From the NCBI GenBank assembly GCA_964023275.1, contig OZ029915.1:32175526-32239525 (forward strand): a DNA stretch of 64,000 nucleotides. The letters run 5' to 3'. This document shows positions 16,129-43,604 of the stretch, piece after piece. A model generated the notes under the pieces. The model had not been told where the DNA came from and searched no databases. It saw only the letters and a list, made by a program, of their open reading frames with translations. The position numbers were made by a program, and so were the translations under genes. Origin of the DNA: Norana najaformis (taxonomy: Eukaryota > Annelida > Clitellata > Crassiclitellata > Hormogastridae). Every line of letters starts with the position of its first letter. Position 1 is the stretch's first letter.

Positions 16129-16416
16129 GGTAAATAGATTTAAATATATATTTATGATTTTTGGGAACAATAAATGAAATGAAATGAAATAAAGTTGAAA
16201 ACGTATAAATGTTTGCTGTGTGTTATATGTGTACGAATACACGTTAAGTAAAGCACATTTAATTGTTATTTTTTAATGCTGAAAAACGCGTATGTTTTGT
16301 TTCCAAAACATCGACGTCGTTTAGGACGCCATTACCCTAGATGACAAATTGTGTAGAAAGTCGACACTGACTACAATGTAGAAAAGTGATATTTAGCGCC
16401 ATCTAACCGTTAGCTT

Positions 16417-17431
16417 CACAGCTTGTCCAACTGCTACGGAGCCTCTACAAACAACAACGCGCAGCCGTCAAAACTGATAACATCTCCTCTGAATGGTTCC
16501 GCTTTAAGAAAGGCGTTCGACAAGGTTGTAACATCTCTCCTTGCCTATTTAACATCCTCGCGGAACAAGTGATGCGTAAAGCGCTTGACAGATTCACTGG
16601 TGGCTTTAGAATCGGCGGTAAAGTCATCAGTAATCTCAGATATGCCGATGACATCCTCTTGGTCGCTACTTCACCGGAGGAACTCCAGGAACTCGTCCGA
16701 AGAGTCGAAACCGCTGCTGAGGAGTACAGTTAAAAGATAAATACTTCGAAAACGAAAGTTATGACCAACATCGACGAGGTCCTCGAGGTTTTAGTTGCAG
16801 GCGATAAACTCAAGCAGGTTGATAACTTTACATACCTGGGCAGCAAAATTTCAAGCGACGCAAAGTGCTCAGGCGATGTTAAGTCCAGATTGGCCATGGG
16901 TATGGAAGTCATGGTGAAACTCACGAAGGTCTGGAAAAACAAATCCATCAGCACTCAAAGCAAACTTCGTTTGATGAAATCCCTGGTGTGGTCAGTTGCA
17001 ACCTATGGGTGCGAATCATGGACGCTCAAAAAAGCTGAAGAGAAGCAAATCCAGATTTTTGAGAACAAATGCATTCGAAAGCTTCTGCGCATCCCCTGGA
17101 CGCTCAAGCTTACCACGGGGCAAGTTTATCACCTTGCTAGAACTTACCCCGAGCTCTTGAGTTCCACTAAAGCTCGCAAACTCCGCTATTTTGGTCACAT
17201 CATTAGACTTCCTCAAGATTCCATAGAAAATTCCATCATTCTGGGTCACGTTGAAGGCTATCGACACCGTGGCAGACCCCAAATTAACTGGATCGACAAT
17301 ATTCTTTCCTGAACTAACCTTTCTGGTTCTTATCTTCTCGCCGCTGCACGCAATAGGCGTCAATGGAGAGCTCTAGTCCATTCATGTAGCCAACCGTCGC
17401 GCAGCGACGTTGGTGCATGACATGACATGAC
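16417..17431 (+). mobile_element. 5'-truncated LINE with a 12-bp target-site duplication
   Basis: The element encodes the back half of a reverse transcriptase: GVRQGCNISPCLFNI, then RYADDILLV (the catalytic YADD), FTYLGSKI, YGCESWTL, and the C-terminal HRGRPQINWIDNI. One in-frame TAA at 16731-16733 interrupts an otherwise open frame. It ends in CATGACATGACATGACA. The direct repeat AACCGTTAGCTT flanks it at 16405-16416 and 17432-17443, which fixes both boundaries. This is the endonuclease-RT family often named craniofacial development protein 2-like; its clade (RTE or I-like) is not settled here. It landed 288 bp upstream of the IQCB1 start codon, in the opposite orientation to that gene. Confidence 0.9.
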
Positions 17432-20817: not shown

Positions 20818-23800
20818 CTATCCTATGGTGGAGATGCTGAAACTGTTCTGGTAATGATTAGCCATAGTTGTTGTAGTCGTTGCAGCACTTGGCGTCGTCG
20901 TCATCATCAGCGTCGACAGCTTCGCAATTTGTGGAGGTGGGGGTGGTGGTGGTGGTGGAGGAGGTGGTGGTGGTGGAAGCGGCGGCGGAGGGGGTGTTAC
21001 GGATGGGATTGCGGCACTGGGCAAAAGCCCTTGGTTGCGAGTAGCGCAGATATCCAGAAGTGACGTTTTTCCGATGACGTATGAGTAAGTCTTGAGTTCC
21101 TTGAACAGGCTGGCAAAGAAGTCCGGATCGCGATTGATCCGCAACATCCGGTTGCTCATTTCGGCCACGATCCTCACGCACTTGTGCCAGAACCTCTTCC
21201 GGTCATCGTCGGCGGCGACGAACGGCCTCACGGGATAGCTGATCTCGTTTCCCATGTACGCATAGGACAGGTAGAGACAGGTGAGCACGGTCGATTGGAG
21301 TTCCTGGACCGTGACAATGTTCGTGTCGACCATATCGCGTACCATCATGTAGAAGAAGATGATGTTCGTCGGATTGAGGAACGGTATCTCCTGCCACCCG
21401 TTCGCCATGAGGGCACGGTCAACGGACCGTATCCAGCTGACGGCCTCGTGACCCCGGAAGTGACGCAGACGGAGGCAGCGGCTCTCCAGGAATTCGCCGA
21501 CACAGGCCAGCAGCTCTGTCGAAGACGCCTGCAGCTGCACGGTCCGCCTGTTCGGGATGACGATGTTGCAGTTAACCGACGGTGGCACCCTCTCGGCGGT
21601 GACTCTATTGCTTGCATACTCTCCATTTGGCTGAAGCGGCAAGTGATTCGCCTGACAGCGGAGGCTGACCACAGACTGAAAACAGTAGATTTATATAGCA
21701 CTGTTACAAGGAAATTACTTTCACCTATACAGGCTCTTTTCTGAGCATAATTTCCTTTCAGAAGTGGCAGCACGTTATTGGTCTTTCATTGCTTCGTTGG
21801 GTCTGACATTGCGGGCTGAACACGAACAAAAAGATGTCAATTTCCTAACTTAGGCCTACTTTCCACCCTAATAGGCTTCGTCATGAGATTACCTGTTTTT
21901 GCTTGTCGAGGTATTCGTTGTTTATTGAGTCATCCCTCCCACCTTCCACCTTTTTCTCTTTCCTCCTCAGCAGACTTCCCAGGCTGTTAAACCATCTGGC
22001 AAAGTTATACACTAGAAACGTTTACCTTTAGGATCAAAAGCGGAGAGCAAAATTACTTATGGCTCAACATTTTGCCCCCTCCCTTGCCGACGCCCTTGCA
22101 AATAGAAAAAGGATGTTATAGTGCCTGATATAATGTAAGCGAAAATATGCTTAAGGTATATCGACTGAGGGAAACGCATAAAATGGACTGAATTGGTTTG
22201 AACGTGGCCATCCAGGAAATATTCCTAATGGCCTAGAAATCACTGCTGAGCCAATGATGCGTAACGCATTTCGTCTGTTGGATAAATCGAGCAAACAAGC
22301 AGATTGGCCTAGCAGAAAAACACGTCTTTCGGGTAATTTCTGATCGTCGTATTTATATTTAGGAAATGACTGCCATCTAGCGGGAGACGCCTGTCTCGCC
22401 ATCGATCTTCTCTAAAGCAATCGGAATAGAAATGGAACGGTTCTGATTGAAACCAAAGCAATTTCCTACCATCCAAAAAGATGATATACGTGTGAACGAA
22501 TGAAACAGATGCGCCCAAGAACAGAAGCCTTTAGCGGAAGCCAATGATCGTTTTCCAGAGCACTAGGCCTATATCCAATCAGGTTAGGCCGTAACACCCT
22601 CCCATATGCATGCACCCTAAAAGCGAGGACTTATATGTGATCGGTCACGGATAGGGACACAGAAAAGACCGGACTTCCGGCTTTATATGTGTATGAAATT
22701 ATGTTTACGCTTTACGCGATATTAATGATACATGTAATATTTATGAGATTGATTAAGTTCCGGGAAACTAATGACATTTACATGCGGCGCAATAATAATA
22801 TTGCTGAACACGGCTGGACAAACGACGTGCTTGTTTCAATTCGTAGAGCACTCTGTTGGTTGTTTTCTTGGCTTTAAGAACAAAATAAATGATTTATCGG
22901 AACCAAAGGCTAGCAGGCGTATTCATGTGTATAGGTAAGTAGGTATGTAGGTAGGAGGTAGATAGGCAGGTAGATAGGTATGTGTGGCGTTCTCGGTCGG
23001 GCTAACTGTTCATGGGGTGGGGGTAACTCTAGCCCAGTTCTACGCTCAGAGCCACCCGCCTCACTGCCCCTTGCACTCTCACTGTACAATGGTCTTCCCG
23101 TATCATCTCTTCCAGTAGTGTCGGTTCTCTCCAAGGAAGGCCTAGGATGGGTCTCTTCCTTAAGGGAATCAACACTGTAACTCTCGGTCTCGGAATCCGA
23201 CTTTGCCTCTTCCGCGGTCGCCGGATGGGCAACGTCCTGAGGATGGCCTTTACTCAGAACAGGGTTCGTTCCTTTACTGGCAATAGTCATTCCTTTTCTG
23301 CGTGAGGACTTTCTCATAACCACCATTCTACATCTTGTAACTCTCCCGATACCGCCAATATTTTCAGACACCAGTCGTTTTCTCGGTTCCGGGAACAGGG
23401 AAGGCTTACGACGAGCCTCTGCGTCTTTCCGCCCTAGGCACATGGATATCGGGCGAGACATCTTCCAGTTATCACTATCTGTCTCTCGCTCCATCTCCGG
23501 GTACTTCCGAGGACTTCCGGAGCAAATTTCCATGTCAAGTCTCTGTATTGGCAATTATCGGCCAACACTGCTTCAGGGTATGGGATACCCCTATGGTACA
23601 ATCAAGAGAAGGTCCCCTCTCTAACCTTCTGTAAAACACAAGGACCTTCGTACCGACCTACGCACGAGTGGGCCCTTCCCCGCACTTCAGTCAGTCCTCT
23701 GATCAGTGTGTGGCGACAAGCATATAGAGGAGTCGGTATCTTCCCGTGTGGACTCCAGTGTTATCGGGGAACCGACCCGGACTATTTTGTATCGGGTATT

Positions 23801-26800
23801 TTCTTGGTCTGCGTTAGTTTCCAGTCTCTTACGTACCGGGACTTTACTTGGTCTGCGTTATGATCCGCGGGTCTTCCCGTATCTCCGCTGTCTGAATTTC
23901 GACCGGGAGAACAGCGGCCGCGACTTTACCCGAGTTTCGCACAACCTGTTATCTTCCAACTCTCGTGACTTACTCGACCGTCTTGCGACGTTCCAACAAG
24001 ATGGGCCCGAGCCCTGCTGGACCAACGGAGCCAGTCAGAAATCAGACAGATGGTGTGTTGTTGGCATCTTCAAAGTCAATATTCTATGCTTATGGATGAA
24101 GCAGGTGGAATCCCTTGTAATTGTAATTGTAATCTGGCATTTATAAAGCGCCACTTCAAGAATAGACTCATCAGAGGCGCTCCCGACCCAAACCAGTGAG
24201 ACCACTGCCAAATAATACAGACTTCAGGTGCTTGCGAAACTGCGAAAGAGACAAACTGAGGAATACAAACCGGAGCTCTCGGGAAAGGTGATTCCAGCTA
24301 TTAGGTCCAACATAGGCAAAGCTTCTAGACTGCGCTGTAGCAGTGCGCATACGAGGGACAGTCAGGAGTCCAAGGGAGCCGACCGGAGAGTGCTACGGCC
24401 TGGAATCAAGGAGACCGAAATGCAGAAGTCCCTAAGATATGATGGAGCAGAGCCAACGAGACAATTACGCATAAGCGTTAGGATCTTGAACTGGATACGC
24501 TGCTGAATCGGAAGCCAGTGGAGAGTGTCCCGCATAAATGAAGTTGTATGGCCGTACCTGGGGACGCCTCCAATAAGACGGGCAGCAGCATTGAGAACAG
24601 ACTGAAGCTTGGAAATATTGGCAAGTGAGAGTCCAGCAAAGATAGCGTTACCAAAGTCCACCCCGGTGCAGATAAGGGCATGAATTAGAGTAGTAACGGC
24701 ATGAGAGGAGAGGAAGCGGCAGATGGTACGAAGCTGACGAAGGTGGTAAAAGCATGAGTGGGAGACACTGTTAACATGATCGATCAAGGAGAGTTCCCGG
24801 TCCAGAACAACCCCAAGATCACGGTCTTTGGAACAGAATAGAATGTCGGGAAACCTCTGGCGTAAGGATGATGAATCAATCTTTGCAAGCTGAGCACGAC
24901 CACGAAGCCAGATGAACTGTGTCTTAGCAGAGTTCAGTTGGAGGCGATTAGAGGACATCCAGAGACCAAGGGCAGATGTTGCGTTAAGAATACTCTCAAC
25001 CAGAGAGGAAGCCGCTTCCGCTGGGCCAAGAGCGAAGGCCTGAGTGTCGTCTGCATACTGATGGACAGCAACACCCATGGGAAGGAGAACCCGTGCCAGG
25101 TCGGCAGTGTACAGAATGTAAAGGAGAGGGGCCAGAACAGAACCCTGAGGAAGGCCAAAAGGTATAAGGGACCAGGTGGAACGTGTAGGCCCAAAGATAA
25201 CAGAATGAGAGCGGTCTGAGAGGAATGACTGAAACCAAAGAAGGGCAGTATCAGTAATGCCAAAAGATTTTTCTAGACGCTCCAAATGTATAGAGTGATC
25301 CACAGTGTCAAAAGCTGCACTAGCATCATAAAGGGCAAGAAGAGTAACCTGTCCACTGTCAAAAGCTCCAAAGACGTCGGCCAGGAGACGTGAAATAAAT
25401 GATTCAGTAGAGTGGAACTTCCTAAATCCGGATTGAAGAGGAGGCATGAGGGAGCTAGAGTCAAGGTAGTCAACCAGTTGAACGGACACACATCTTTCAA
25501 GAAGCTTAGAGAGGAAGGAAAGGTTAGAAAGCTTAGAAAGGTTAGGTCGGTAGTTTGTTGTTAGTGCATCCTTGTCGCTTGTTGTTAGTGCATCCTTGTC
25601 GCTTGTTGTTAGTGCATCCTTGTCGCTTGTTGTTAGTGCATCCTTGTCGCTTGTTGTTAGTGCATCCTTATCGCTTGTTGTTAGTGCATCCTTATCGCTT
25701 GTTGTTAGTGCATCCTTGTCGCTTGTTGTTAGTGCATCCTTGTCGCTTGTTGTTAGTGCATCCTTGTCGCTTGTTGTTAGTGCATCCTTGTCGCTTGTTG
25801 TTAGTGCATCCTTGTCGCTTGTTGTTAGTGCATCCTTGTCGCTTGTTGTCAGTGCATCCTTGTCGCTTGTTGTTAGTGCATCCTTGTCGCTTGTTGTTAG
25901 TGCATCCTTGTCGCTTGTTGTTAGTGCATCCTTGTCGCTTGTTGTTAGTGCATCCTTGTCGCTTGTTGTTAGTGCATCCAAAACATGGCGGCGGCCATGT
26001 GGTGACGATCGTTGGTTGATTAAACCAGGATTTGAACATCAGACCACATTATTATGAGTGTAAACATTACCAGAAGGTAATGTAAAGGATAACGGTTATC
26101 TGAAATATCTATTGGTCTAATGTAAATTAAAAATTCAAAGCGATTATTCAACAGTCATGGTCGACGTCAAAGACTCTGGCAGCCACAAGATGCCATCAAG
26201 CACCCGATACTTCAACTACACTAGCCTTTAGCAGTCGATTACATGGGCCTAGAGACACGGGTGGCATAAAGCCAATGGACCTGCCTTCGGGCAGAAAACT
26301 CATCATCAGAGACACGGTATGCATTTGTGTACATGCTCAGTTATGAGTAAGATCGTGGAATGCCAGGGCATAAGAGCAACTATAGTTTCTCTGTCGCGCT
26401 TGGTTTATGTCAGAGGATTTAGAGACAGATCCGATTTGGGATTTCCTTGACATTTATTTTCTGTTACAGTTGGCGCTTTCGATGGCTTTTAGGCTGCGGT
26501 CCTCATCGAGGAATCAACTGCATGTCCTGCGATCTTCCACGAGGTTCGGCGAATGTTCCTTCTCTGTCGCCGAACCCACGGCGTGGAAGTCTTCCTGACC
26601 ATGTGACGAATGCCCCATCCATGGACACATTCAAGTCACGACTCAAGACACATCTTTTAAAGATATCTTATGACTTGTCGATTTTTGAACTCATGTACAG
26701 CGCCATTTTCTTCTGCCTCGGCTATTCTACGGCGCTATATAAATTGTCCTATTAATATTATTATTATTCGCAAATGTTAAGCTCGTTGTTATTGTGCGCC

Positions 26801-29384: not shown

Positions 29385-31151
29385 CATACATTCTACTATT
29401 AACTGGATCCTATAATCCAATCAAATCAAATTTATTTCAGTCCACCGCACTTCACTTCAACCTAATCTAAGTTAATTAAATCAAATCTAGTCTAGTCTAA
29501 TCGAATCTAGTCTAGTCTAATCGAATCTAGTCTAGTCTAGTCGCCTCTACTCAAATCATCTAATCTGATCAGATTCAATTTTCCAGCTATTTCAACTTTC
29601 ACATGGCTTAGGGTGGCAAGGAGTGCCTTCAAGAGGTTAGAGCACCATAAAACTGTTTGCATATATACAGTACACACGGACACGGAGAGAAATGCCGGGG
29701 GGAATGTCCGGGAGTAAATGTGCGGATACCGGCTGCGCTGAGATTAGGCCTATTTAAATTTCACTAGACTAGGCCTACATGCAGTTTTTTTCTCCTTGGT
29801 GCCGCGACAGGCCTATGACTCTTCAGATATTCAGATAATTGACACATTTTGTTTGAAGGGACCGTGTTTTAAGACAAAGTTTAAAAATAGAATAATGTAC
29901 TTTATAATAAGTTCAATATCATGTGGAATTTCGTTGATGTAATGTTAATCTGAGCAGTTGCCCGGGAAGGGTTTAAAAGTTGTGTGGGCTAACCTCAGCC
30001 AAGTACAGACCTAAGTGTGGATAAAATTATACATTATATCTGATATAATCTATAAGAATAGGTATATATCTCCATTGCCCATAAAAGTTGTGTGAGCATA
30101 CTCTACCTCGGCGTCACAGAGCCTAAACTTGTGAGCATCGGCGCCTTTGGCGCCATGGCTCCCGGGCCCTTGGATCTGAGCGTCACAGAAGTGTGACAAT
30201 TTTTCTTCCCCTTTGTCATTATAAGCAGTCAATGACGACAACACTTGTGCGTCAAAATATTGCAGTCATTGAGTTATTTCATTGCTATATAAAGGACAAG
30301 AAGACGATGAAACTGAATCTGATTTAAATTAGATTCTATGAATACGAATTTTAAAGTGGCATATAGACTAGAACAGAACATAATAGAATAGAATAGAATA
30401 GAATGAAATAGAAAATGGTTTAAAGGGAATACGACAGCATGAAATAGAATGGATTGGGACTCAATAAAATTCGTTTATTTTGTTTAGCAAAACAGAATGG
30501 AATGAAGTAGAATATTCATTTAAACTGAACGAATAGAACTGAATAGGAGAGAATACAATACAAGACAACAGGTAGGCCTACCTTAGTAATTGGATAATCT
30601 GCACCGGCGGCGTTGTTGTTGCTGTTTGTGGTTTTCGTAATCTCTTTGAGGATTCTGTCCGTGTAGGCAATAGTAGAGACCGGGGTTCGATTCCCTGGAC
30701 AAACTCCAGACGACAGGTGCTTCATTTGGTAGCTCGGCACCAGGTAAGCTGAATACCTGTTTTCGTTATTGTTTTCCAAGTCCTCGTCCCTAACTATCAG
30801 CCGGCCCTGCTGCTGCTGGTGGTGGTGGTGGGGATGGTGGAGCTGGTGTTGACTCTGATGCTGGAAGTGATTGTCGAGCTTTCCAGACAGTCGACTGGCC
30901 AGTCTCAACCACAGGTTCTTCTCCTTCTTCTTCGACGTCGAGCTCAGCTTCCTCCAGTTCAAGGACCCGATGAAGGACGACCGACAATTGGCGCTGCTTC
31001 CCGTCTTTGCATAGCTCGCGTTACAGTAGTCGAGGTTCGATGAGCCGTGGTCGATGTGATTTTGTTTCATGTCGAAATCACCAATGGTGCTGACCCTCTC
31101 ACTGGCCGCAGTTCCCCTCGGCTTAGGAGAACTGGACATCGACGCCCCCAT
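20818..31151 (-). CDS. CDK5R1: CDK5 activator, p35/p39 family (CDK5R1/2-like), two exons
   Basis: Exon 1 is 30582-31151 and exon 2 is 20818-21675, joined in phase 0 across a GT-AG intron of 8,906 bp; the product is 475 residues. The N terminus MGASMSSSP fits the N-myristoylation signal of p35 (Gly2), and SLNWRKLSSTSKKKEK (63-78) matches its basic membrane-binding patch. A His/Gln tract follows at about 96-115. Residues 235-405 are the CDK5-binding cyclin-like fold: TELLACVGEFL, WIRSVDRAL, LTCLYLSYAYMGNEISYP, FWHKCV, LRINRDPDFF. The family activates CDK5 in neurons without being a cyclin by sequence. The C terminus is unusual: a proline run at about 418-438 and a Thr/Ala tail. Vertebrate CDK5R1 has a single coding exon and about 307 residues, so the intron and the added tails are notable. 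The symbol marks the family; p35 versus p39 cannot be separated. Confidence 0.92.
22910..23554 (-). CDS. Unrecognised 214-codon open frame inside the CDK5-activator intron
   Basis: A single ATG-initiated frame rich in Arg, Ser, Glu and Pro, without any motif recognised. Residues about 110-150 are acidic and Ser-rich (AEEAKSDSETESYSVDSLKE); the last 25 residues are low-complexity (IYLPIYLLPTYLL) because they translate a TAGG-type tandem repeat at 22930-22980. It lies in a locally GC-rich block. It may be part of an unknown transposon or a chance frame; no splice or homology evidence supports a host gene. Confidence 0.2.
   Translation of the reverse strand: MPIQRLDMEICSGSPRKYPEMERETDSDNWKMSRPISMCLGRKDAEARRKPSLFPEPRKRLVSENIGGIGRVTRCRMVVMRKSSRRKGMTIASKGTNPVLSKGHPQDVAHPATAEEAKSDSETESYSVDSLKEETHPRPSLERTDTTGRDDTGRPLYSESARGSEAGGSERRTGLELPPPHEQLARPRTPHIPIYLPIYLLPTYLLTYTHEYAC
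23000..24060. other. GC-rich, CpG-rich block of unknown origin in the intron
   Basis: Base composition differs clearly from both flanks. A short internal near-repeat occurs at about 23795-23870: ATTTTCTTGGTCTGCGTTA and ACTTTACTTGGTCTGCGTTA. It abuts the 3' end of the LINE at 24115. It could be a separate mobile element, a retroelement untranslated region or a regulatory CpG island. Confidence 0.35.
24115..25557 (-). mobile_element. CR1/L2-like LINE, 5'-truncated reverse transcriptase and tail
   Basis: The minus-strand frame starts at the conserved NYRP-NLSFLSKLLE motif and continues through LQSGFRKFHSTESF, ASAAFDTVDHS, GLPQGSVLAPLLYILYTADL, the catalytic HQYADDTQ, and the C-terminal NAAARLIGGV and LHWLPIQQRIQFKIL. 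The main frame stops at 24362; a shift near there leads into a frame carrying FAYVGPNSWNHLSREL and FRKHLKSVLFG, ending with TGA at 24171. The element closes with GGCGCTTTATAAATGCCAG and three TTACAA units, the 3' tail type of this group. Only the front of the protein (endonuclease and first RT motifs) is missing. It lies in the same orientation as the host gene. Confidence 0.88.
25555..25980 (-). repeat. 24-bp minisatellite, 18 copies, in frame with the LINE reverse transcriptase
   Basis: The unit reads DALTTSDK on the minus strand and is repeated with almost no variation (two units share one base change, another has a different one). Because 24 is a multiple of three and the unit has no stop in several frames, long open frames appear on both strands. 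The last unit runs directly into NYRP of the reverse transcriptase. The other side is ordinary intron DNA (ATGGCGGCGGCCATG), so the repeat occupies the 5' truncation point of the LINE. Confidence 0.95.
26480..26770 (+). mobile_element. LINE 3' end (tail family T2) with an ATT tail
   Basis: The remnant reads GLPDHVTNAPSMDTFKSRLKTHLLKISYDL in close variant form, the C terminus of CR1/L2-like proteins, followed by GGCGCTATATAAATTGTCC and a TATTATTATT run. The block CGGTCCTCATCGAGGAATCA recurs at 61975-62000. It is a short 5'-truncated copy. Confidence 0.7.
28022..28190 (+). repeat. GATA and GA simple-sequence tract
   Basis: GATAGATA-type units pass into a long, nearly pure GAGA run with a few GACT interruptions. 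The strand is almost wholly purine from 28022 to 28240. Confidence 0.9.
29320..29384 (+). repeat. (TC)n microsatellite
   Basis: About 32 TC units with one TTTC interruption. It follows a GGTTCAATTC box of a possible degenerate tRNA-like SINE (about 29220-29315). Confidence 0.9.
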
Positions 31152-33040
31152 CTCTGACCCTCTTCACTTCTAGGCCAAAACAACACAGATCCACCCAGTT
31201 ACTTCCAGCTGCGGCCAGATTTCTCTGCCTGACAATCCTGGCGTTTCACTGTCTTGTCACCCCAGATTCTCACGGCTTTGTCACACCGGATGCAGTCATT
31301 TCTACTCACTTAAGTCCTCCGCCGTCACCTTTCACCGTCCCTAGTTCCCTCGGCTTCGAACCTCGCATTAACCGTTTGTGCTGGCGATTAATGGCACTAA
31401 TATCTCGGCTCTTGTCCTGTGAGGACTGTCGGGTCGTTACTGCGTCTCCTTGGCTACGCGACCACTCATCGTCTGTCTGCCTCTGCTTGCCTATTCTCCT
31501 TCTTCTCCTCCTTCCTCCGTTCAGTCAGCCTCCTTGTTCAGCTTTCCTAGCAACCATCGTTACTAATGAACTGTAATAAGACGATGGCAACGGGCTGCTG
31601 CTGCTGCTGCGAGGCTGCTCGGCCATGGCGCATCGCCTCTGCTTTTCTTCCTGGTTTATCATAAATCGATGCGTACTCCATGCACTGCCCGCCCCAAGGT
31701 CCACGCCCCGCCTCTTCTATGGCCAGCCGTTCGTCCATTAATCGCACCAGTACAGACTAGTTATACATTGACCTGATTTCAATTAATCATGTTTTCCTAA
31801 CAAAACATGTAATTTCATATTCTCAGTATCATTGTGAACTTGGCTAATAGTACTAGAATTGTAATTATACTTTAAATGCAAGGTAGAAATTATGTCTAGT
31901 ATTGGTTTCCTTAAAATTGGAGCTACTCAAACCCAGGCCCTATCTCGATCGGACTAGCATTCCTTCAAAACATTTGAATATGCAAATATACCGACCCGCA
32001 TTGAAAACGTAGCCTGCGATTTGTGCTCTAGTTATTCAAAACATGACGTGTACGTAGAAGTTCATGCTCTGGTTTTTATCTACAGAACTACATTCTAGCG
32101 TTCTCTGGGTTTATGCTATAAGCTGAGGCCTTCATCAGATCTCTATCAAGATCCAGCGAGAATTAAAGCGATTGGGAAGGCCTCTTGTGTGGGCTCTAAA
32201 GGCATGCCAACTGGCCAGACATGCTTTCTTTTGCTAAATCCAAACGTTCATGCACAGATAATTATTGCGGTGAATATAGGTACGTTTACCCCACGTGTTC
32301 CCTCAATCCGCTTCCAATTCGAATGGCGTTCTCTGTGGGATTATACTGAAATTAACAGCATTTGAACATTTAACTGAAATTAACAGCATTTGACTTAGCT
32401 GTTCAACACTGTTTATTAATATCACACTTTGGTCTATTTTCCTTCGAACTACGTTTCGAACCAGCTCAGGCCTAAATCCGCCAATATGCGTTCAAACAGT
32501 TGCAGAAGATTACACAGTATCAAGCGACCAGAGGTTAGGCGTCAGGTTCTTTCTACACTCACTGCTTCTCTTTCTTGCTGTCTGTCGTCTGCTCTAGATT
32601 ATGATTAGGGGCCTATATTTTGAACGGGATTAGGATTAGGATTATCAAATTGATTTTAATCGGGCTACATGCAGTTGCTCTGTTTTCCCTCCTACTGTTC
32701 AAGGACCGATTCTGAGGATCGCCACTCATTCAATTACTAATTAACCAGGCTCAGCATTGCTTACCTTCAATGCGCCTGCCAGCGTTGTACCAACAGCACG
32801 AATGTTCGTCGAGGTCGTGATGATGATGACGACAACAACCACGACAATGATGATGATAAAGATGATGACGACGACGAAACAAGTGGTATGAAAAGTTAAA
32901 GGATACCTCGTTTACATGATTATTGGTGAATGACTCTCTACCAAATTGATATCATCTTTAGCTGTATCATCTTTGATATCATCTTTGATATCGTCTTTAG
33001 CTTTAGCTGCACGGTTCGACCTAAAATAGAGAGGCATCCA

Positions 33041-37358: not shown

Positions 37359-40300
37359 TCAGTTATTGGAGCCCAGTTGTTCAACCAAATGTTCTTTACC
37401 CGCTTCTCGAAGAGCCGCCTTCAGGGCTTCTAGGGTTGCCTCGCTGTCAATGCTCGAAGGTTGAGCTTGGCGCCATGCCCAGAGCATCTTGAACGCCCCT
37501 TGGTACGTGCTGCCCTCGTCCTCCCGTATCTCAGCCAGCTCCTCGTCGGGCACGGCCAGGGCTTTCCCGATGCCCTCCCAGTCGCCGCCGATCTTCTTGG
37601 CCAGCAGAAGCATCTGACGGTTATCGAAAACGGCTGCAACCAGAACGGAGCAATAGTTTCCAACAGTGTCCATCCTATCTCAGTAATATAAATGTAGAGT
37701 AGACGATCGTCTGTTCTGATGGCATGACAAACGTTGTTATCGACGTTCGCTAAGGCAAAGCGTTAGCTTCAAATCGTCATAACAATAATACGACGATTTA
37801 TAGAGCGCCAAAGTTCGGCTGAGGTCGAAAAAGGGCACTGCACATGTATAGTTCTTCGCTGACTGCAGCCACATGTTAAGTATATCATCTGCATTGCACA
37901 GGCTTTAAGTGTAATTGTATTTCGATGGGCATCTCTATATATAACTTGATGTCATGACTATTCTTTAATTATCATCGCTGAAAATGTAAGTGATGCACTT
38001 CATAAATGCATGTAAAACAGGTCACTATCACTAACCCAAGCGTCAGCGTAATCAGCACCATCATCGACATCACCATAATCATCATCATCATCATCATCTT
38101 CTTCTTCTTCATCATTCCGCCTTAGATGTAGAGACGCCATCTATCGATGCCCATGTAGCTGATAATTTTGGCGCTGTGGAAGTCCTTGGATTAAAATCAC
38201 GGACGAGTTGTCCCTACCGGATTTACTTTTGGCTGATATGTCGGATTTTCGTCGCTGCACTGGCTTCCCGGGAGTTTTGGCTTTCTTCTCTCCATTTCGG
38301 TCTCGATCTGAAGCCAAACAAGCAGAAAATTGTCACTGGATGATTGCATTCAAATACTGTACAAAGCGTTTGATTTATTCGTGATTGAATTCTGTCGCCT
38401 CTGGCCATACACTGAATATATGCTATATCAGTCGTTTGATTGATTCGTGATTGAATTCTGTCGCTTGGGAGACATCTTACATCGAAGAGAAACAATCTTG
38501 GCATTCTAAACATGAACGGTCTATGCTTCAACTTCTGTCTCTTCCTCTATTTTCTCATCCCTCCTTAATTTCCATCCTCCCCTCCTCCCTTTTACTTTTG
38601 CCTTCTCTTCATCTCTCTCGTCTCCCTGTCTTTCGTCGCTCTCCTCTCTCCTTTATTCTTCTCTTCGACTTCGACATTTTCTTCGACTCTCCTCCTCTCT
38701 AACCCTCTTCCTCTCTAACCCTACTCTCTCCCTTTTCTCCTTCTCTCTATCTCCGTTTCCTTCATTTTGTCGTCCCTCCCTCCCTTACTCCCTCCCTCCC
38801 TCTCTCTCTCTCTCTCACACTCTCTTTCTCACTCTCCATCTCACCTTTCTTGATTACAACTCAACAACGCATTTTCCCATACTGTACGCTTTCTCAACTC
38901 TTTATCTACAGTATGAATACCGACATACGCTTACATTCAGCTGTCCTCCCCCGCTTGTGATAATCTGTCTGTTATAGGATACAGGGTCTCTGTGTTTCCC
39001 ACAACTCGCTTTTAGACTTTGCCCAAGAGTGCAAGCATGGTCAAAATAGCATTAAGACGACGAAACGCCTGGCTATAGACACGCCTACAGAGGCATTATA
39101 GCTGCCGAAGAACCAATTCATCCGTTTGTTAATATATTACCAAATTAAGATATAGGGCCCCTGTATATACACTATTAATGCTGGCAATAATCGCTTGTTG
39201 ATAGCACTAATTATCTGTAATTAATTTGCAATTTAATTTAAATCTAAACCATAACTTCGTAGATTAGCCTATATTGCGATGACTGTGTAGCCCCTGCAAC
39301 CCGTGCGATAATAATAAATTTTAGGTGCGCAGTAAAAGCCAAAAACCGATCTCAAGCAATTCAGGTGAGTCATTTGTACCCAATGCCTTTCATTGTCTGA
39401 GGTCAAGTATTGAATCAGGATGACTGCAGTGAAGATGAAGATCGATGATGATTTTGAAATGGAAAAAAACGAGATTTGCAACAGGTGCAGGCGAAGTAAC
39501 TTGCTGCTGGTGATCGATAAATTACAGTTTCGTACACAGGACTTTAGAAGAAGAGGAAAAGTTCAGTCTCTTAAGCTAGCCCTAGGAAGTGTTAGCGACT
39601 TACTTTCTTAACCTCGGCATATGAGGACTAAAGGCCAGTCCTCTCCCTCATCATCTGATCTTCTTATCAGCAGTGTACCGTCAGTGTACTAATTTTATAG
39701 CTGAGTTCGCTAGGGGACGCAATGGAGCAGAAATCTTGAAACTTCATTCTACCCTGGCAGAGATTTTACCCCCCCCCCCAGACTTCTTGGTTGACAGTTC
39801 ATAACTCTAACGAGTAGACTATCGCGCATCATACATGCCTTTTAACCTGTACAATTTTTTTTAAAATATATTATGATGTTTAGGCCTTACCGATGGTGGT
39901 TAAAGACTGAAATACAGGTACAGTCGCATCATATCCTAAATTGGATATAACTATAACATAGAATGGAATGTATATAGTTGAAAGCAATGCCTGTTGACTG
40001 CAGATACTTGTGTGGCACGAGTGTTCACGCACATAAACTGTCTGGTGTCAATGCAAATTTAGTGCTGCTATACTGCCAGACAGTTGTTTCAACTAGTATA
40101 AAGGGCTACATAAATGTCTGCCTATGGACCCCAGTAAACGTTTTTTCACATATTGTAATGTGTGTATTATGTCTGAAAGACTGCATGTGTTCGAATAAAT
40201 ATGTTCTAATAATATAAATTTGATGTAATTGATGGCGCAATATAAGCATACATGCATACGATTCTTCTCTTGCAGTTGTTTCTGCAAGAATGTATATGTA

Positions 40301-41808
40301 TACCTGCAGTATATATATATATTCTGGCGTTATGTAGCATCGATGCATGTGTATGTATATATGTATTGTGAGGAACATGATGAATATTGGAGGAGCTGCA
40401 TAGGCTGCAGTGATGCACACTCACATCAAATAACACAAGCAGAAGAAGGCTGTCGATCTGCGCAGTATTGTTTACCACAGTCCCTTGTTGTTTATGTTTT
40501 AAGATGCCCTGAGGCACCAATCCGTGTGTAGGACCTATAGTTCTGCATGGTCTGCATAATTAGCAAATACTTTCCCTACTGCAAGATTTGTTAGTGGTTG
40601 CAGAACATGTGAAAATATATTTGTAGGCAAGATATCCATTATAATTACATCACATGATCGGGATTTTCACATATTGTAATGTGTGTATTATGTCTGCAAG
40701 ACTGCACGTATATCTATGCAGTTTGTTTTAATGTAGGCTTACATTTAAGGTCACTTGCTTATACAGTAAGTATATTTTGATGGCACAAGTATAACCTTCC
40801 TGCAAAACTTAATTTCATCCAATTAGAAAGTCTTAATTATCTCAAACTAACATACATCGGAAAGTAGCTTCATATCTAGCAAGAAAGTCAGAAGGCCTGT
40901 ATAGTTCTCAGTCCTCCCTTAAGAGTCCCATATTGCCTCTTGGTGATGGTCTCAACAGTCAACTGTGCTAATCAATCGGTTTCAGCCCAAACAGAGGCAA
41001 CATTGTAACAGAAATAGACAGCTTTCTACGGGATCATATTGCAGTACGATCTCCACAGCTCGAGTAAGTACTAAGCTCACTTTATCAAACGCCCTCGAGA
41101 GCCTCATTCACACCCTCTTGGAGTCAAGCAATACACTGTCAGAAACGAATCCAATATACTTAGGTCTGCATCGTGGTGTGGTTAATCCATCTTTCCATCT
41201 TCTACCTACGATCCAGTTCACACAGTCGAGCTTAACTCGTGGTCTTTTCTTTTTCGACCCAGTGCTTGCTTTACCTGTGCAAATAGACTGCACGCTGTGG
41301 AAATTAAATTGCTGTCCCGTTTTAACTGCATAGGGCCGAATCCCTGCAGTATTACGTTTTTATGCAGTTTTTCATGCATCATTTCATTTGTATTGCATGG
41401 TCCAGCGCTTATTTTAAAACAGTAATTGCTTTACGTCTATACCGTGGCCTACGATTCCTCGCTCAGCCGATGGACACATGGCGTGTTAACCGATGTCTTG
41501 CTTATTTACTTTTTACGTAATTAGAAAAACTATGCTTATTAGGCCCTAATTGATATTCTAGATATTGCTCCTTACTTATTAATTTTCTTTTCTCGTGAAT
41601 CATTTATATGATATACTGTACTGTTACTGTACTGCTACTGCTGCTGTTACTACTATTACTTCTAGTACTACTACTGTACTACTACTACTGCTACTGCTAC
41701 TACCATTACTACCACTACCACTACTACCACTACCACTACTACTACTACCAATAATAATAATAGTTGTTGTTGTTGTTGCTGCTGCTGCTGCTGCTGATGA
41801 TGATGATG

Positions 41809-41874
<66 letters not shown>

Positions 41875-42984
41875 GGACTCAGAGGATGAGCTGAAAAAAT
41901 ACGCTTGAGAGACTTGTTACATCTGAGATGGCTAATCTTCGCTTATGCCTGGCTCAATGAAAGAGCCATGCAAAGTAATTGCTTTAAAGCACTGGACAGC
42001 AAAAGAAAGGCATTGAAACAGGAATGAAGTCTCCCTTTTGTCTCCCAACACTTATAATATTAGTAATGGTAGTAGTAGTAGTAGTGGTAGTAGTAGTAGT
42101 AGTAGTATTAGTAGTAGTAATAATAATAATAATAATAATTTGAAAGCCCTTTGTGAGATCCTTGAAGGGCGCTACATAAATAGCCAGATACATGCATACA
42201 TACGATAGGTTTGATTATACAAAAAAGGTGCACTTGACTTGCCATCCAGAATGCTAATAGTGGCGTCGGCGATATCATCCATGTCTTTTTTCCGCAGGGA
42301 ATCGACGAGTTTCATGATTGTGAAGTTTGGTCCAGCGATCTCCTTCCAGGCCATGAGGGCCCTGTATCCCTGGATGATTGGCGGCTGTTGCTCGAGCCGG
42401 GCCAGTTCTTCTTCTAGGATTTCCGGTGGAAAGGGAGCCATGAGGTCGGAGAAGACTGGTCTCCATTCGTCGCCCATGCCGCGCGACACCTCGCGGAAAA
42501 TCTTATTAGTGAGCAGGATGTCCGTCTGGTCTTCCCAGATCTGTGGCCTGACCTTCGGCGCGTTGGAGCTGAACCTCTCATCGAAGGACTCGCGGAACTG
42601 TTCCTCGATCACGGCGAGGTTCCGGTCGAGCTGAGGGGCGTTGGACTGTTCCAGCTCTGCCGCCAGAGCTTCCTGTTGGGCCTCCATTTCCTGCAGCTGT
42701 TGCTGGAGCTCTTCGAGGCTCTGTTCTGCCCCAGTCGATGGAAGAGAACTGTTGCTCTCTCCGACTGCCGGCTCCTCCGCCCTTGGCACTGTCTTCTCGG
42801 CCGTTCCATTTGGGGCTGGGGCCTCGGCGGAAGCTGGGGCTTCGGCGGAAGCCGGGGCTTCGGCGGAAGCCGGGGCTTCGGCGGAAGCCGGGGCTTCGGC
42901 GGAAGCCGGAGCTTCGGCGGAAGCCGGAGCTTCGGCGGAAGCCGGGGCTTCAGATGCTGGTACAGGTTCTGGAGCATCCGACAT
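37359..42984 (-). CDS. Protein with two Death domains, a coiled coil and a hexapeptide-repeat N terminus
   Basis: Model: exon 1 42234-42984, exon 2 38218-38307, exon 3 37359-37633; phases agree and give 371 residues. Residues 11-56 are seven near-perfect APASAE units; 86-114 form a coiled coil (LEELQQQLQEMEAQQEALAAELEQ). Death domain 1 spans about 155-243 (REVSRGMGDEWRPVFSDL, YRALMAWKEIAG). A basic linker (GEKKAKTPGKPVQRRKS) comes from exon 2. Death domain 2 spans about 284-368 (LLAKKIGGDWEGIGKAL, MLWAWRQAQ, LKAALREAGKEHLVEQL). Death domains pair to build signalling platforms in apoptosis and innate immunity; no catalytic domain accompanies them. The exon 1 donor (GTGCAC) is not strong, so exons 1 and 3 could be separate one-domain genes: exon 3 alone has an upstream ATG at 37673 giving 104 residues. 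No named family is recognised. Confidence 0.7.
38524..38850 (+). repeat. 327-bp polypyrimidine tract
   Basis: Almost uninterrupted C/T on the plus strand (purine-rich on the coding strand of the host gene), ending in CTCCCTCCCTCTCTCTCTCT. It lies in intron 1 of the Death-domain gene, about 215 bp upstream of exon 2 on the coding strand. Confidence 0.85.
40143..40708 (+). repeat. Pair of 45-bp direct repeats
   Basis: TTTTCACATATTGTAATGTG then TGTATTATGTCTG(A/C)AAGACTGCA occurs at 40143-40187 and at 40664-40708. The 476 bp between them contain no gene seen. Confidence 0.8.
41613..41873 (+). repeat. Patchwork trinucleotide tract
   Basis: The unit changes along the tract in order: ACT/CTG mixes, CTACTACC, AATAAT, GTTGTT, GCTGCT, GATGAT, then about 19 ATT units. 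One base of the triplet changes at each step. Confidence 0.9.
42058..42205 (+). repeat. GTA/ATA trinucleotide tract next to a LINE/SINE tail
   Basis: GTAGTAGTAG passes to AATAATAATAAT by 42140. It is followed by GATCCTTGAAGGGCGCTACA and TAAATAGCCAGATACATG, the tail type seen at 20290. The tract lies just after the exon 1 donor of the Death-domain gene on the coding strand. Confidence 0.75.
42821..42956 (-). repeat. 18-bp coding minisatellite in exon 1 of the Death-domain gene
   Basis: Seven units of GCTTCGGCGGAAGCCGGG on the plus strand, encoding APASAE on the minus strand, with only one or two base differences between units. Confidence 0.95.
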
Positions 42985-43604
42985 TGTGAACTGATTGATT
43001 TATCTATCTATCTGTCTATCTGTTTAGTTGCTGGGCGAATCCTCTGCAACACAGGAAAGAATAGATGTTATGTTGTAAAACTTAATGGATCAATTACAAT
43101 TCATACGACCGACCTACCTCTGAAGCTGAGAAGTTTGGCTCAGAACTGTTCGACCAGTCGAAATATAAAATCATGGCTATGTCCGCGCCAACATATCGAG
43201 TAGGTGTAGCCAGAGGCTACAGCTATTTTACAAACAGGCTAAGGAGAGGTGCAACGAAACCATGGGCTTGCTTGATAGCCATAGCACTGCGCATATATGT
43301 CTGAATCGTTCGTTGAGCACATGTACAGCATATTTACCATTTGGTAGACGGCCAGTGAACGATGTTTGAAATAACAGGAGGAGGTAGCAATGCCCGCAGC
43401 AATCTCTGCTGCTTTCCTGTCTACATGATGCACACTGTCATCGTCTAGGACAGTGGTGTCATATAGGCCTATGCATCAACACCCACCCACCCACCCACTC
43501 ATCCATCCATCAATCCTCTCACGCACCAACACACCAATACAAAAACTGTAATAATTTACGTTATACATAATCACATAAGCTACATAAGCTATATGTAGAT
43601 AGGT

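Follow-up and report, generated by a model that had tools for sequence, protein, structure and literature searches.

A conserved family of proteins with two Death domains, candidate bivalent adaptors, in the annelid Norana najaformis

A 64,000-nucleotide stretch of the genome of the annelid Norana najaformis (assembly GCA_964023275.1, contig OZ029915.1, positions 32,175,526 to 32,239,525 of the forward strand; hereafter the window) contains a gene whose protein product has two Death domains. This gene, the window copy, lies at 37359..43043 on the minus strand, in coordinates that count positions along the window. It is a real gene with three coding exons, animal by gene content, and sequence comparison places it in a conserved family with three or more members in this genome. 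The protein, 368 amino acids long in the corrected model, begins with a variable acidic N-terminal region, after which come two Death domains (DD1 and DD2) separated by a short basic linker. Its probable role is to connect other signalling proteins of cell death or immunity; in our preferred reading, to which we assign a probability of roughly 0.55, it acts as a bivalent adaptor between two Death-domain partners. An earlier reading of the window from its letters alone (the original prediction) had proposed a self-assembling adaptor with this pair of domains.

The family was recognized by searching the whole genome (608 Mb, 17 contigs) for relatives of the window copy; only the best-scoring candidates were evaluated, so that further distant copies are possible. 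Outside the window, two good relatives were found for exon 1, at 47% and 39% identity, and two for exon 3, at 61% and 52%; the weaker exon 1 matches fall mainly on the repeat tract of that exon. Among the best candidates there are two DD1-like sites with E < 1e-20 and two DD2-like sites with E < 1e-15, and these sites occur as pairs on another contig, at C6:1221583 and C6:1223558 and at C6:22846872 and C6:22849855, about 1.5 and 2.6 kb apart, with strand and order kept. Gene models could be built through both domains for paralogue B (L025, 302 amino acids) and paralogue C (L026, 262 amino acids), and these two paralogues provide the best evidence for the reality of the gene. In exon 3, 51 of 88 residues are identical between the window copy and paralogue B, and 41 of 84 between the window copy and paralogue C. 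The DD1 part ends one base past the Ile-Leu-Asp codons in all three copies, and the entry phase of DD2 matches; these junctions are in phase 1 and lie at homologous codons. Paralogue C has an additional phase-0 intron within DD1, and its model skips exon 2; because two of its acceptors are weak (-1.3 for the second half of DD1 and -3.6 for DD2), its exact junctions are less secure.

The exon assignment of the original prediction, in which the phases join through a basic linker exon, is essentially right, but the end of the first exon had to be moved. Coding exon 1 (42243..42984, minus strand) is an open frame that carries the N-terminal region followed by DD1. It had been ended at 42234, where the donor is unremarkable, ranking in the top 25% of 3,739 GT sites on the same strand. 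Because both paralogues splice one base past the Ile-Leu-Asp codons, the end is better placed at 42243, at the donor of a putative GC-AG intron (GATG/GCAAGT, with the GC at 42241..42242); the phase is the same as with 42234. The paralogues have GACA/GTAAGC and GACA/GTAAGT at the same codon. GC-AG introns are a known functional minority class, and an intron of this class would explain the poor GT donors in the tail of exon 1. In its remaining positions the GC donor is equalled or bettered by 15 of 2,951 GC sites, its own site counted. At the corrected junction, a single Asp replaces Gly-Lys-Ser-Asn. An in-phase alternative donor, 42204/GTATGT, has a weak splice score and was set aside in favour of the GC donor on grounds of homology.

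The remaining exons are defined by splice scores and by conservation. Exon 2 (38218..38307, minus strand) encodes the basic linker in 90 nucleotides, is in phase 1 on both sides and is conserved in paralogue B; its donor ranks in the top 0.9% of sites and its acceptor in the top 1.6%. When candidates were required to be 30-300 nucleotides long, open in the required phase and above zero in both splice scores, it ranked first among five in the intron. A summed splice score of at least 8 is reached by one candidate on the entire minus strand, which is exon 2 itself, and by three on the plus strand. Exon 3 (37359..37633, minus strand) carries DD2, with its Pfam Death match, and the stop codon, and its acceptor is in the top 1.7%. 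Upstream of the coding region, 42985..43043 (minus strand) probably belongs to exon 1 as its 5' untranslated part, with an in-frame stop ahead of the ATG at 42984. It is preceded by a strong 3' splice site, TGTGTTGCAG/AGG at 43043, which is among the best 0.6% of the strand's 4,216 AG sites. In paralogue C, TAATAACAG/C is found immediately 5' of the ATG.

Both conserved segments are Death domains by profile and by predicted fold. DD2 (residues 279-368; 37362..37631, minus strand) scores 37.7 bits against Pfam Death (PF00531; E 2.3e-9), above the curated cut-off of 22.6, and DD1 (residues 150-247; 42244..42537, minus strand), searched as exon 1 alone, scores 19.5 bits (E 0.0011), below it. In the joined proteins, two Death stretches are found in each of the three family copies at a Pfam threshold of E <= 0.1. 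At that threshold, none of the three contains a DED, CARD, ZU5, NB-ARC, kinase or TIR domain, or any enzyme or receptor domain, as originally claimed for the window copy. The only further Pfam domain above its cut-off is Bacterial Death-like domain 3 (bDLD3) in the joined protein of paralogue C (29.2 bits, cut-off 27.1, E 9.5e-7), which falls on DD2 and overlaps a Death stretch. Structures were predicted for DD1 and DD2 separately, as single domains, and each is predicted with good confidence as a six-helix Death fold; the non-Death outcome, one of two that the original prediction had named as refutations, was not found. Both match solved Death domains (such as those of FADD, ankyrin and THOC1) better than CARDs or DEDs, with the Death domain of FADD the top structural match for each, tied with other Death domains.

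The two domains are of unlike kinds. With single sequences, the THOC1 Death domain is the best PDB match of both (E 0.0023 for DD2, 0.059 for DD1). A profile of the three DD2 sequences comes closest to PIDD-CC chain 9tuf (3.8e-7) and to 2of5_H (5e-6), a chain that we take to be PIDD, followed by THOC1 (6.9e-5), ankyrin-3 (1.4e-4) and CRADD (0.0051). The corresponding DD1 profile matches THOC1 at best (0.0026), then a designed helical protein, with TRADD and FADD below. Compared with each other, the DD1 and DD2 profiles match with E 0.00019 at a probability of just 48%, and nothing in this comparison points to a recent internal duplication.

The regions outside the Death domains are less constant. 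The original prediction had made an APASAE tract followed by a coiled coil part of the layout; both are seen in the window copy, but neither is fixed in the family. The tract is encoded by an 18-bp tandem repeat (42818..42951, minus strand; 7.4 copies, 96% match) that is absent from both paralogues. A crude heptad scan predicts the coiled coil in the window copy (residues 86-113; 42646..42729, minus strand) and in paralogue C, and detects none in paralogue B. The tract being limited to the window copy and the heptad pattern missing from paralogue B, neither should define the protein. The paralogues have 76 (B) and 78 (C) residues ahead of DD1. The linker is conserved between the window copy and paralogue B: the exon 2 peptide aligns with the linker of paralogue B with a score of 57 that none of 1,000 shuffles equalled, and the two share the pattern KP-x-QR-[RK]-KSD. 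The motif is KPVQRRKSD in the window copy (38240..38266, minus strand) and KPLQRKKSD in paralogue B; it is basic and kinase-site-like, and may be a basophilic kinase site or a nuclear signal. The linker exon was not found in paralogue C, where 952 of 1,000 shuffles aligned as well.

Phylogenetic analysis points to a shared history of the two domains within the family. Of the 36 Death-domain matches in the genome, 31 were fetched for the tree; the other five were the family's three DD2 exons, whose sequences were taken from the gene models instead, and two matches that contain a stop. The three DD1s form one clade (support 100/99) and the three DD2s another (97/97), with the order ((window,B),C) in both, arguing that the pair was joined before the copies arose and has therefore been kept for a reason. 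Deep branches of the tree are weak and seven of its rows are long, so no origin of DD1 or DD2 is claimed. Over the two domains and three pairs, the proportion of differences is 0.69-0.86 at synonymous sites and 0.23-0.36 at non-synonymous sites: synonymous sites are near saturation, and the amino acids are conserved. The N terminus, with non-synonymous differences of 0.41-0.47, changes faster than the domains, as does the linker (0.34 between the window copy and paralogue B, against 0.23-0.24 for the domains).

These data bear on two ways in which the gene itself might have been misread. The exons could belong to two genes with one Death domain each, exon 3 starting at the in-frame ATG at 37673. 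This would fit the lack of a strong ordinary GT donor where exon 1 ends and the position of that ATG, 13 codons ahead of the exon 3 acceptor; paralogue B also has an ATG shortly before its acceptor. However, a GC donor accounts for the absent GT, the residues from the ATG to the acceptor are dissimilar between the window copy and paralogue B, and in paralogue C a stop immediately ahead of the exon 3 acceptor leaves no such start. Above all, both paralogues retain the exon pair in the same order, with phase-1 junctions at homologous codons and agreeing DD1 and DD2 trees. A separate-gene reading is accordingly very improbable and was rejected, and the claim that one gene carries both domains stands. 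It is scarcely credible that the window copy is a decaying pseudogene. The non-standard GC donor and a repeat expansion unseen in the paralogues might hint at decay, but all three coding exons are open, both domains are predicted to fold with good confidence, and synonymous sites differ far more than non-synonymous ones.

Comparison with known proteins shows partial likenesses. FADD, like the window copy, is a small adaptor-like protein, and it carries a DED ahead of its Death domain; Pfam detects no DED in the family, and the first domain, DD1, fits Death domains best. In the PIDDosome, PIDD1 has LRR and ZU5 parts and CRADD (RAIDD) has a CARD. The DD2 profile is nearest to the PIDD chains and also matches CRADD, but Pfam detects no LRR, ZU5 or CARD in the family, and for DD1 the fit to Death domains is closer than to any of the CARDs listed. 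PIDD1, UNC5 and ankyrins have a ZU5 before the Death domain; no ZU5 match (20 in the genome) lies within 10 kb of the three family loci, so the window copy is not a fragment of a PIDD, UNC5 or ankyrin gene. THOC1 (p84), a large subunit in mRNA export, has a single Death domain at its C terminus, whereas the window copy has two in a small protein.

The claim that the layout matches no known adaptor therefore holds with respect to the DED of FADD, the CARD of CRADD and the ZU5 of PIDD, but it does not hold for the pairing of two Death domains. The available description of the sponge Geodia cydonium protein DD2 is of a pro-apoptotic protein with two Death domains and sequence similarity to FADDs and Fas ligand (PMC9798719, PMC5793068). 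Known from that description, it resembles the window copy in layout only. Some CED-4/Apaf-1 homologues are described, in the part of the source consulted, as having double Death domain repeats (PMC2246300), so that they too have two adjoining Death domains in one protein. These homologues are NB-ARC proteins, and the window family has no NB-ARC by Pfam. The Death-domain passages of a paper on amphioxus contain no two-Death-domain adaptor (PMC2575513), and a search of the accessible literature gave no account of the window family, although a nameless family is hard to search for and this result does not show that it is unpublished. The present analysis adds a corrected gene model and a family, three genes or more, whose members share an exon plan and, in two of the three cases, the linker; the two-Death-domain layout has already been published.

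In the bivalent adaptor reading, all that leads from fold to bridging is inferred, as are self-assembly and a role in cell death or immunity. Each Death domain would join the helical Death-domain assembly of a different partner. DD2, closest in sequence to the PIDD Death domain, might dock on a PIDD/CRADD/ankyrin-type sensor. DD1, which is distinct and has diverged, would bring in or nucleate another Death-domain protein. In some copies the N-terminal region may promote oligomerisation or act as a spacer, and the basic KP-x-QR-[RK]-KSD linker, in the copies that have it, could be a control point through phosphorylation or localisation.

The genome contains candidate partners of this general kind. 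Of its 36 Death-domain matches (E <= 0.001), 10 are preceded on their own strand by a ZU5 match no more than 10 kb away, as counted by eye. The Death domains of 7 of these 10 form one clade (support 100/98), and on sequence grounds the ten loci are an expanded ZU5-Death family. A more specific proposal, speculative and rather doubtful, is that double Death-domain bridges, combining a PIDD-like domain with one that forms a kind of its own, connect these expanded ZU5-Death sensors with other Death-domain proteins. Such a relay would operate without a CARD or DED in the adaptor, and the phospho-site-like basic linker would be its switch.

The main rivals to the adaptor reading are a brake and a structural role outside immunity. 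A Death-domain-only protein without an effector might cap or soak up Death-domain assemblies, and this is possible but not probable. The three copies lack an effector domain by Pfam, and the genomic Death-domain matches, those with ZU5 included, offer many potential targets. Nothing specific argues against a brake; however, FADD and CRADD activate although they too lack enzymes, and two conserved domains of unlike kinds would fit bridging better than capping. The Death domains could instead be plain protein-binding modules in a structural or nuclear protein, as in THOC1 and ankyrins. That THOC1 tops the single-sequence matches of both domains and the DD1 profile points in this direction, and the basic linker could be a nuclear signal. 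The DD2 profile is closer to PIDD than to THOC1, however, and Pfam detects no further domain ahead of DD1, and we regard such a role as unlikely.

Elsewhere in the genome, four related Death-domain exons (L037, L038, L041, L043) lie within about 82 kb at C2:46992667-47074160, two of them almost identical as translated; by sequence, this cluster is a recent tandem expansion. Three loci on C1, at 2231558 (L051), 2361418 (L050) and 5505028 (L052), 130 kb and about 3.1 Mb apart, have two identical and one near-identical translated Death stretches, which would reflect either recent gene duplication or a duplication in the assembly. Other animals with enlarged Death-domain sets are known: 139 matches are reported in amphioxus and 87 in sea urchin, against 31 in human (PMC2246300, Table 1).

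The window also contains a CDK5 activator (p35/CDK5R1-like) gene at 20821-21690 on the minus strand (Pfam CDK5_activator, E 7.4e-69). A stretch at 30519-31163 (minus strand), without a Pfam match, may encode the N terminus of this protein, which it resembles. Remains of retroelement reverse transcriptases are found at 24365-26038 on the minus strand (RVT_1, E 3.1e-22), in an open frame that opens with a long DALTTSDK repeat, and at 16407-16730 on the plus strand (RVT_1, E 1.9e-15).

Familiar Death-domain adaptors pair a Death domain with a different module, such as a DED, CARD or TIR. If the adaptor family described here is real, it would show that two Death-domain assemblies can be coupled inside one small adaptor, and it would give the sponge protein DD2 a counterpart for comparison.
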